A stretch of 64,000 nucleotides of DNA, taken from Vibrio fortis (lineage in GTDB: Bacteria > Pseudomonadota > Gammaproteobacteria > Enterobacterales > Vibrionaceae). Below, piece after piece: positions 31,287 to 62,460 of this stretch (the stretch's first letter is position 1; every line of letters begins with the position of its first letter). Location of the stretch: positions 186,001-250,000 of the forward strand of contig NZ_AP025487.1 in NCBI RefSeq assembly GCF_024347475.1, in the 5' to 3' direction. The translations under genes were made by a program, and so were the position numbers. A model generated the notes under the pieces. It saw only the letters and a program-made list of their open reading frames with translations. It had not been told where the DNA came from and made no database searches.

Positions 31287-32819
31287 ATGTCAGCTAAGAA
31301 GCCTATGGCTCTAGTGATTCTTGACGGTTACGGTCACCGTGAAGACACAGCAAACAACGCAATCGCGAATGCAAAAACTCCATTTATCGATAGCCTGTTT
31401 GCTAACAAACCAAACACACTAATCTCTGCTTCTGGTATGGATGTAGGCCTACCTGACGGTCAAATGGGTAACTCAGAAGTTGGTCACACTAACATCGGTG
31501 CTGGTCGCGTTGTATACCAAGACCTAACTCGTATCACTAAATCTATCGCTGACGGTGAGTTTGCTGAAACGCCAGCTCTAGTAGAAGCTATTGATTCAGC
31601 GGTTCAAGCTGAGAAAGCTGTACACATCATGGGTCTAATGTCTCCAGGTGGCGTACACTCTCACGAAGACCACATCTACGCAGCAGTTGAAATGGCTGCA
31701 GCACGTGGCGCTGAGAAGATCTACCTACACTGCTTCCTAGATGGCCGTGATACACCGCCACGTAGCGCAGAAAGTTCTCTACAACGTTTCCAAGATCTGT
31801 TCGCTAAACTAGGTAAAGGCCGTGTGGCTTCTCTAGTTGGTCGTTACTACGCTATGGACCGTGACAACAACTGGGATCGTGTTCAAGTAGCTTATGACCT
31901 TCTAACTTTAGGCAAAGCGGAATTCACAGCAGACTCTGCAGTTGCAGGTCTAGAAGCAGCGTACGCTCGTGAAGAGAATGACGAGTTCGTTAAAGCAACG
32001 GCTATCAAAGCTGAAGGCGAAGAAGACGCAGCTATCGTTGACGGCGATGCAGTTATCTTCATGAACTACCGTGCTGACCGTGCTCGTCAAATCACTCGTA
32101 CTTTCGTACCTGATTTCGACGGCTTCGAGCGTGAAGTGTTCCCAGCAATCAACTTTGTAATGTTAACGCAATACGCAGCTGACATCCCGCTAGCTATCGC
32201 ATTCCCACCTGCGTCTCTAGAGAACACATACGGTGAGTGGCTATCTAAGCAAGGCCAAACTCAGCTACGTATCTCTGAAACTGAGAAATACGCGCACGTT
32301 ACATTCTTCTTCAACGGTGGTGTTGAGAACGAATTTGAAGGTGAAGAGCGTCAACTGGTGGCTTCTCCAAAAGTGGCGACTTACGACCTACAACCAGAAA
32401 TGAGTTCTACTGAGCTAACTGAGAAGATGGTTACAGCTATCAAGTCTGGTAAGTACGACACTATCATCTGTAACTACCCTAACCCAGATATGGTTGGTCA
32501 CACTGGTGTTTATGAAGCTGCAGAAAAAGCTATCGAAGCAATGGACGAGTGTGTTGCTAAAGTAACAGCAGCTATCGAAGAAGTAGGCGGTCAAATGCTG
32601 ATCACTGCTGACCACGGTAACGCAGAGATGATGGTAGACCCAGAGACAGGTGGTATCCACACTGCTCACACTAACCTACCAGTACCTCTAATTTACGTTG
32701 GTGACAAAGAAGTTGAGTTCAAAGAAGGCGGTAAACTGTCTGACCTAGCTCCAACTATGCTTTCTCTAGTAGGTCTAGAAATCCCATCAGAAATGACGGG
32801 TGAAGTTCTGGTTAAATAG
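31287..32819 (+). CDS. gpmI: 2,3-bisphosphoglycerate-independent phosphoglycerate mutase
   Basis: Glycolytic enzyme interconverting 3- and 2-phosphoglycerate, with two Mn ions. The 510-residue product shows LVILDGYGHREDTANNAI, GMDVGLPDGQMGNSEVGHTNIGAGRVVYQDL with the phosphorylated serine, and SPGGVHSHEDH. HCFLDGRDTPPRSA, NYRADRARQITR, NYPNPDMVGHTGV and ITADHGNAEMM are further signatures. ATG 31287 has GAGG eight bases upstream. Codons are strongly biased (CTA/GCT/GGT), as expected of a highly expressed housekeeping gene, unlike its neighbours. Its last 97 bases plus terminator are repeated at 62115-62275. Confidence 0.98.
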   Translation: MSAKKPMALVILDGYGHREDTANNAIANAKTPFIDSLFANKPNTLISASGMDVGLPDGQMGNSEVGHTNIGAGRVVYQDLTRITKSIADGEFAETPALVEAIDSAVQAEKAVHIMGLMSPGGVHSHEDHIYAAVEMAAARGAEKIYLHCFLDGRDTPPRSAESSLQRFQDLFAKLGKGRVASLVGRYYAMDRDNNWDRVQVAYDLLTLGKAEFTADSAVAGLEAAYAREENDEFVKATAIKAEGEEDAAIVDGDAVIFMNYRADRARQITRTFVPDFDGFEREVFPAINFVMLTQYAADIPLAIAFPPASLENTYGEWLSKQGQTQLRISETEKYAHVTFFFNGGVENEFEGEERQLVASPKVATYDLQPEMSSTELTEKMVTAIKSGKYDTIICNYPNPDMVGHTGVYEAAEKAIEAMDECVAKVTAAIEEVGGQMLITADHGNAEMMVDPETGGIHTAHTNLPVPLIYVGDKEVEFKEGGKLSDLAPTMLSLVGLEIPSEMTGEVLVK

Positions 32820-32883
32820 CTTTCGAGTACTTGAACAGTACACAAAATACTGAGAGCCCGCGCCTTGTTGTGCGGGCTTTTTT
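32723..32883 (+). repeat. Direct repeat DR1: gpmI 3' end plus terminator
   Basis: 161 bases matching 62115-62275 with four substitutions, all in the non-coding part (32829, 32830, 32839 and 32842). The first 106 bases are identical. The two copies are 29,392 bp apart in the same orientation and enclose the second polysaccharide block. This copy is part of the intact gpmI gene. Confidence 0.97.
32855..32883 (+). terminator. Rho-independent terminator after gpmI
   Basis: AGCCCGC (32855-32861) pairs with GCGGGCT (32872-32878) around a ten-base loop, followed by T-rich sequence. The same hairpin recurs at 62247-62277 after the last gene of the second block. Confidence 0.9.
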
Positions 32884-33003
32884 GTATCTATAGGGCACAT
32901 GGCTTACTGAGAGAGAGTCGACTTACGAGGCGTCGATCACGATTTAGAACAATGTTATTGATGCAAATCTGTGGTTTTATCTATCTCATACACCTATCGC
33001 TTG

Positions 33004-33012
33004 TGGTAGAAT
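33004..33012 (+). promoter_or_regulatory. Candidate extended -10 promoter of the second block
   Basis: TGGTAGAAT fits an extended -10 (TG-n-TATAAT with one mismatch). No convincing -35 precedes it. It lies 35 bases before an ops-like site and about 150 before the first gene. The rest of the 340-base gap 32820-33159 holds the gpmI terminator and no other clear signal. Confidence 0.3.
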
Positions 33013-62116: not shown

Positions 62117-62275
62117 AAGGCGGTAAACTGTCTGACCTAGCTCCAACTATGCTTTCTCTAGTAGGTCTAGAAATCCCATCAGAAATGACGGGTGAAGTTC
62201 TGGTTAAATAGCTTTCGAGTTATTGAACAGCACGCAAAATACTGAGAGCCCGCGCCTTGTTGTGCGGGCTTTTTT
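62115..62275 (+). repeat. Direct repeat DR2: duplicated gpmI 3' end plus terminator
   Basis: Copy of 32723-32883 with four substitutions. It carries the last 97 bases of the gpmI gene, with the stop TAG at 62209-62211, and the downstream hairpin. It has no start and is out of frame with the preceding dehydratase, so it is a gene fragment. It marks the right end of the second block. The rest of the gap 62276-62562 holds repeat copy B and nothing else clear. Confidence 0.97.
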
Positions 62276-62277
62276 TT
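62247..62277 (+). terminator. Duplicated gpmI terminator ending the second block
   Basis: AGCCCGC and GCGGGCT (62264-62270) form the same stem as at 32855-32878, here followed by eight Ts. It lies about 130 bases after the dehydratase stop, so it would end the long second operon. Confidence 0.88.
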
Positions 62278-62460
62278 AGATGCGAGAGGCGGGTAAACGA
62301 GATACGAAGAGCAAAAAGCAGAAGCGTGATTCGAGTGAGCGAGATGAGAGGTGCTGAAGAGCTGATTTGATATGCGAGAAACTAGAGGTGAAGATATTAC
62401 GCAAAGAGAGCTGCAACATATTTTATCATCTCGAATCTCGTTACTCTCATCTGCTCTAGA
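62278..62460 (+). repeat. Dispersed Vibrio-type repeat cluster, copy B
   Basis: Degenerate words such as GTAAACGAGATACGAAGAGC, GATTCGAGTGAGCGAGATGAG and the inverted ATCATCTCGAATCTCGTTAC. They belong to the same family as 6255-6380 and 63166-63238. The stretch begins directly after the duplicated terminator. Confidence 0.6.

Follow-up and report, generated by a model that had tools for sequence, protein, structure and literature searches.

A change of serotype in vibrios is usually described as the replacement of, or internal recombination within, one O or K locus, and serogroup conversion by natural transformation has reportedly been documented. In the parts of PMC2987987 and PMC7829505 that describe them, the V. 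parahaemolyticus K loci lie between gmhD and rjg/glpX. Genomic islands that occupy the 3′ ends of genes are set out in part of the Islander report, where the island restores its target gene and the displaced fragment is left at the far end (PMC4383910). Such islands include SGI1 in trmE and the dusA islands of Vibrio (PMC8409611). There is no mention of gpm or phosphoglycerate in the main text of PMC2987987, PMC7829505 or PMC11641403, the last of which describes a sulfated capsule locus. The open-licence literature searched yielded neither gpmI as an island target nor a report of gpmI or phosphoglycerate mutase as such a site at Vibrio polysaccharide loci, which is weak evidence of absence. 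Here we describe a self-contained second glycan cluster that sits beside the resident capsule locus of Vibrio fortis, bracketed by copies of the end of this housekeeping gene, and we find that the same gpmI end brackets other DNA in two further Vibrio species.

Results

A second polysaccharide block between two gpmI ends

The window is the whole stretch of 64,000 nucleotides that was analysed (G000:C1:186001-250000), taken from a genome of 5.28 Mb in 3 contigs. Its left half holds the resident capsule locus, K1 (Table 1), with gpmI as its right border gene. The order of the gfc and wza-wzb-wzc genes is the same in G030, G150, G073 and G005, with wzb absent from the ORF list of G030, and G139 carries an additional cluster ahead of gfc. 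From its gene content, the K1 product is predicted to be a sulfated, rhamnose-containing capsule.

The original prediction was of a direct repeat of the gpmI end, matching at 157 of 161 positions and including 97 coding bases and the terminator, with one copy in an intact gene and the other a fragment with no start. Self-BLAST of the whole window confirmed the repeat (157/161 identical, E 3e-74) as its sole off-diagonal match at E<=1e-3, and a genome search found exactly two copies. The left copy comprises the final 97 nt of an intact, 516-aa gpmI, stop codon included, followed by 64 nt that include the terminator. No gpmI precedes the right copy, which has no start. All four mismatches fall in the 64 non-coding bases past the stop codon, leaving the 97 coding bases identical. 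The offset from one copy to the other is 29,392 bp, and the intervening DNA itself measures 29,231 bp (32884-62114). At the right junction the stop codon of the last gene of the block (60185-62116, wbpM/pglF type) is shared, with its T in the block and its AG in the repeat. The tail of the left copy (GTATCT past the T run) looks like the terminator tails of other gpmI genes, a likeness that is suggestive only.

Table 1. Features of the capsule locus, the second block and their borders (window positions)
Feature	Position	Strand	Remarks
gfcB-gfcC-gfcD and wza-wzb-wzc, conserved K1 left end	2362..10611	+	Directly after secB-yibN; Pfam YjbF/GfcC/YjbH, NCBIfam wza/Wzb/Wzc
K1 variable part: cysD/cysN/cysC, sulfotransferase, glycosyltransferases, rmlBACD, wzx, probable wzy, WbaP-type transferase, galU	10703..31036	+	
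Probable K1 wzy	15028-16275	+	Hydropathy only
Intact gpmI, 516 aa, right border gene of K1	31269..32819	+	Pfam iPGM_N, Metalloenzyme
Left direct-repeat copy	32723..32883	+	Last 97 nt of gpmI and terminator hairpin
Leader of second block	32884..33159	+	Ops-like GCGGTAGC at 33048
wbpB(Gfo/Idh)-wbpA-wbpD-wbpE-wbpI type genes	33160..38357	+	UDP-ManNAc3NAcA biosynthesis predicted; initial four genes have matches in gmhD-side clusters in other vibrios
Second UDP-sugar 6-dehydrogenase, WecC type	38382..39653	+	
pseB-pseC-aldo/keto reductase-pseF-aminotransferase-pseG/H-formyltransferase-deacetylase-pseI	39644..48641	+	Predicted (modified) pseudaminic-acid-type pathway
BFO_1060-type glycosyltransferase, wzx flippase, aminotransferase-like, GT4-like, FemAB-like, deacetylase-like, GT4	49313..57216	+	
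GT4-pglE-pglC-wbpM/pglF, conserved block 3′ end	57235..62116	+	Predicted bacillosamine-type initiating sugar
Right direct-repeat copy	62115..62275	+	Startless gpmI 3′ fragment and terminator hairpin directly behind second block
Native gpmI-downstream flank: GA-rich dispersed repeat, ogt remnant, matE	62276..63998	.	Contiguous with gpmI in closest relatives

Gene content points to an O-antigen-type gene cluster with predicted pseudaminic-acid-, ManNAc3NAcA- and bacillosamine-type sugar pathways, divided by a gene-free stretch of 671 bp (48642-49312). The block encodes an initiating transferase, glycosyltransferases and Wzx, which by a simple hydropathy count is its sole polytopic protein; no Wzy polymerase was recognised in it. 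None of its 26 main ORFs corresponds to wza-wzb-wzc, which K1 has. A second surface glycan would be its product; since a flippase is encoded but no Wzy was recognised, single units may be ligated, or another locus may polymerise them. Near gmhD, the same genome encodes a 409-aa protein with 11 predicted spans, which we take for a WaaL ligase; given this predicted ligase, ligation of single units to LPS and polymerisation by another locus are both options. The block and K1 cannot be told apart by base composition (GC 0.378 vs 0.386, dinucleotide distance 0.051 vs 0.045).

The empty site in the closest relatives

In the three closest genomes (G030, G150 and G073), gpmI runs directly into the DNA that the window carries from 62276 onward, so the native junction is the one in the right copy and the block is additional DNA. 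The original prediction that the block is an inserted or exchanged unit thus holds as an insertion relative to these relatives. Its further claim, that the event rebuilt the gpmI end, is consistent with incoming DNA having supplied the end of the intact gene, a direction that we infer.

An arrangement with the roles reversed was also considered, in which the block with its wbpM-gpmI end would be the resident, K1 together with a complete gpmI would have arrived on its left and replaced the resident gfc-wza-wzb-wzc end, and the old gpmI would have decayed until just its 3′ end was left. The native flank of the right copy would suit this history, as would its match to the G030/G150 base at 2-3 of the 4 mismatches (at one, the left copy is favoured), and the block has no wza-wzb-wzc, as if its left part had been replaced. 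We nevertheless consider it distinctly unlikely. G030, G150, G073 and G005, as well as G139 with its extra cluster, all show yibN-gfc-wza-...-gpmI and no second block after gpmI. Moreover, the ops-like leader stands directly before the first gene of the block, as in G028 and G137, so no left part of the block seems to be missing.

The native flank has features of its own. The ogt gene (O6-methylguanine methyltransferase, 62745-63035) encodes 96 aa here vs 160-171 aa in G150, G073, G139 and G005, with no ogt ORF listed at that place in G030, and thus appears to be broken next to the right repeat. A short GA-rich stretch past the gpmI terminator (62278-62345) matches several places in related genomes, and its G150 copies also match near window position 64724.

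Recurrence of a second gpmI end in the clade

The clade was defined as 45 genomes, our own included, with matE at >=81% amino acid identity and with gpmI and matE as neighbours, in a comparison set of one genome per species. G194 (80%) was left out, its gpmI and matE lying ~25 kb apart in another arrangement, as were the genomes below it. The gpmI-matE intervals of the 44 other genomes came from search coordinates (36) or from fetched sequence (eight). The original prediction had named two arrangements that relatives might show, a single gpmI end with no block and different blocks between the same repeats, and each was found, the latter across species. A single gpmI 3′ end is present in 42 of the 44, with a gpmI-matE gap of 0.09-2.8 kb in 41 of these 42. 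In the other two, G199 and G205, an additional gpmI 3′ fragment agrees with the one here in place and orientation, with different DNA between it and gpmI.

The remaining single-end genome, G023 (L129, G023:C1:229001-245000), has 9.8 kb between gpmI and matE and no gpmI duplication. This interval holds ogt as well as gfcBCD-wza-wzb-wzc, which sit beyond gpmI, between ogt and matE.

Across the genus, the 161-bp repeat used as a DNA query matched in 157 of 196 genomes (best 4 candidates per genome; G199 and G205 outside this sample), twice in G000 only and once in each of the others. A search with the C-terminal protein part found gpmI in 227/227 genomes. Only G000, G199, G205 and G116 gave two matches, and G116 is an assembly of 120 contigs with an unusually weak best match.

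In G205, an intact gpmI is followed by a 16-kb segment and then by gpmI codons 425-516, and in both copies the duplication goes on for ~370 bp beyond gpmI. Among the products encoded by the segment are a 391-aa tyrosine integrase (PF00589 1.4e-13, PF12167 1.9e-21), an 888-aa protein with an integrase domain (PF00589 2.6e-6), and HipA-like and toxin-antitoxin-like proteins. One weak match was returned by PADLOC for seven proteins of the segment, and four of its proteins gave no tblastn match to the block. A tentative name for the recombinase genes of the segment would be the 'Gamma-Mobile-Trio' element family. Around its capsule locus, G205 also has two further duplications, of a 5.8-kb sulfate-assimilation/symporter segment and of an rml segment, with ~81% identity in each (L132, L138-L141). 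In G199, 0.9 kb with small ORFs separates gpmI from a fragment that begins at codon 422 and misses approximately codons 432-479.

The right fragments of G199 and G205 thus start ~10 nt apart, which in these two cases (n=2) fits a shared attachment core. The G000 block differs from them in this respect, with its fragment starting at codon 485 vs 422/425, and because the right edges differ, one common crossover site is not proven. In both G205 and G199, each of the two gpmI ends has closer matches in other species than in its partner end, which makes import of one end likely, whereas the coding identity of the G000 ends means that the donor was close or the event recent.

These cases bear on the idea that a one-off illegitimate insertion, through template switching or staggered break repair, duplicated 161 bp by chance at a site that is not special. 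The right-fragment start unlike that of G199 and G205 would agree with such an event, as would the lack of clear homology at either block junction. Two further duplications at the same gene end among 44 other genomes nevertheless make a one-off very improbable.

The G205 integrase has homologs in 26 of 127 genus genomes (E<=1e-40). Of the nine best-matching ones, among them G205 itself, eight carry gpmI or a polysaccharide-type gene within ~10 kb, a raw count: G205, G030 (next to galU), G023, G016 (one 39% match), G008, G126, G014 and G082. In the ninth, G119, neither was seen near the homolog in the 12 kb examined. As the integrase relatives lie at varied places in other genomes, gpmI is not the only or fixed target. 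In the genome carrying the block, the only relative of this integrase is a distant one, 28% identical over a segment (E 2e-7), on a different contig. The integrase and its large neighbours (888, 543 and 409 aa; L138:3174-4349, L132:6128-11895) have relatives near polysaccharide genes in several Vibrio species, and are possibly an island family tied to surface-glycan loci.

Relatives and possible sources of the block

The ends of the block have counterparts in gmhD-side clusters of other vibrios. The G188 cluster matches wbpB-A-D-E at 76-88% and GT4b-pglE-pglC-wbpM at 66-77% amino acid identity, and clusters that start with wbpB-wbpA occur in seven more genomes (G021, G028, G068, G074, G061, G137 and G011). 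Like the block, these have a wbpB-wbpA start, a variable middle and a wbpM end, the last seen in 7 of the 8 clusters, with the G137 stretch stopping earlier. Adjacency to gmhD was examined in four of them: gmhD directly adjoins the cluster in G188, G068 and G028, and is a few kb off in G074, whereas the block here sits behind gpmI. The leaders of G028 and G137 hold a fuller element, GGGCGGTAGCGT, at the place equivalent to that of the ops-like motif, and no element of the GGGCGGTAGCGT type was seen in the other six compared leaders (330 bases each). Homology between the block leader and the leaders of these eight clusters was rejected, as no convincing alignment was obtained. Outside its own genome, this leader gave just 20-37-bp matches (227 genus genomes, best 3 candidates each).

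No cluster-level match to a donor was found in 227 genus genomes (best 2 candidates each), nor for 41835-59600 in 296 family genomes, and identities inside the block were at most 80% among the matches listed in these genus and family searches. For a marker protein (53043), one cluster is near-identical (99%; 2 members, a single 26.6-kb contig), and the next stands at 57%.

Several vehicles were considered and set aside. A plasmid origin was rejected after 33000-57900 in near mode and 49313-57216 in distant mode gave no match in 72,556 plasmid records. For phage carriage of the gpmI end, 6 pattern-matching stretches in viral contigs yielded 0 confirmed cases, and 22 matching records of phage collections appear to be misfiled bacterial contigs. 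The 26 main ORFs of the block showed no recombinase or transposase domain (five overlapping ORFs of at least 90 aa lay outside the scan), and an IS-flanked or composite transposon was rejected for want of a transposase domain in these ORFs.

A tentative possibility is that naturally taken-up DNA, or a circle, carrying the cluster and a gpmI 3′ end from a conspecific, was captured by a single homologous crossover with no site-specific recombinase, after which most of the second gpmI copy may have been deleted. The identical coding parts are in keeping with this route, as is a terminator base that both G000 copies share and that is absent from G030 and G150. A cluster ending in wbpM-gpmI would be a natural donor, given that wbpM lies just upstream of gpmI in G073, G139, G005, G120 and G199. 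The clade also varies in its terminators past gpmI: of 48 ends from 45 genomes, 25 share one form, 13 have a second and 10 fall outside the patterns used. This variation is consistent with the recombination that this route would expect at the border. Such a capture would, however, require a circle, or else an additional illegitimate join on the left edge of the block, and the first genes of the block are of the gmhD-side type, unlike those of clusters behind wzc. Alone, it also leaves the near-same codon break of G205 and G199 without explanation.

Discussion

With the duplication, the empty site in relatives, the same-place recurrence, the gene content and the likeness to gmhD-side clusters observed, we regard a genomic-island-type insertion of an O-antigen-type cluster at the gpmI 3′ end as the best reading, and give it an even chance of being right. 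Incoming DNA with its own gpmI 3′ end would have inserted between gpmI and the native flank. Since the native downstream junction lies with the right copy, it is the incoming end that would complete the intact gpmI, and the last 97 gpmI bases and terminator of the host would have been displaced to the far side of the block, where the displaced repeat would supply the last two bases of the final stop codon. The right fragment may have been trimmed later in G000. Recombination could have been driven by a recombinase that has since been lost, or could have been homologous, and the block may still be working or moving. Several findings speak against the insertion reading. The identical coding ends in G000 fit a within-species event better than import across species, the ~370-bp extra duplication of G205 exceeds the usual restoration of an attachment site, and G023 has extra DNA at the site with no gpmI duplication. 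The distance of the sole integrase relative in this genome, the varied places of the integrase relatives elsewhere and the K1-like base composition of the block count against it too. As no recombinase was found in the block and the right edge lies at codon 485, we do not file it as an integrative island; it works like one, or came by homologous recombination at the same border.

The gpmI 3′ end at the right border of the capsule locus is likely a recurrent insertion point, a landing site at which blocks of genes would be gained or lost. A stronger version, which we find doubtful, holds that this gene end is a dedicated landing pad, where recombinase-bearing islands integrate, rebuild gpmI and trade surface-glycan loci as cassettes. 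If true, a strain could add a second antigen locus in one step, with the first not replaced. The gpmI end offers a concrete, testable site of antigen-locus gain and loss, and a second gpmI 3′ end is a search signature for further cases.

The K loci of V. parahaemolyticus (PMC2987987, PMC7829505) resemble this arrangement in forming a variable polysaccharide region of chromosome 1, beside gmhD, that evolves by insertion and recombination. They differ from the present locus, in which the K locus is yibN-gfc-wza-...-gpmI and a second cluster lies beyond gpmI. The sulfated capsule locus of Vibrio sp. KMM 8419, in the part of PMC11641403 that describes it, can be likened to ours in having several polysaccharide regions next to gmhD, three JUMPstart elements and cysC/cysN/cysD sulfation genes, but it is a 95-kb locus with kps export genes and other borders. 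The islands in gene 3′ ends, as portrayed in part of the Islander report (PMC4383910), differ from our block, which has no recombinase and whose right fragment starts elsewhere. The likeness to them lies in the intact gene at the near end and the displaced fragment at the far end, and in G205 it extends to recombinase genes between the two copies of the gpmI end.
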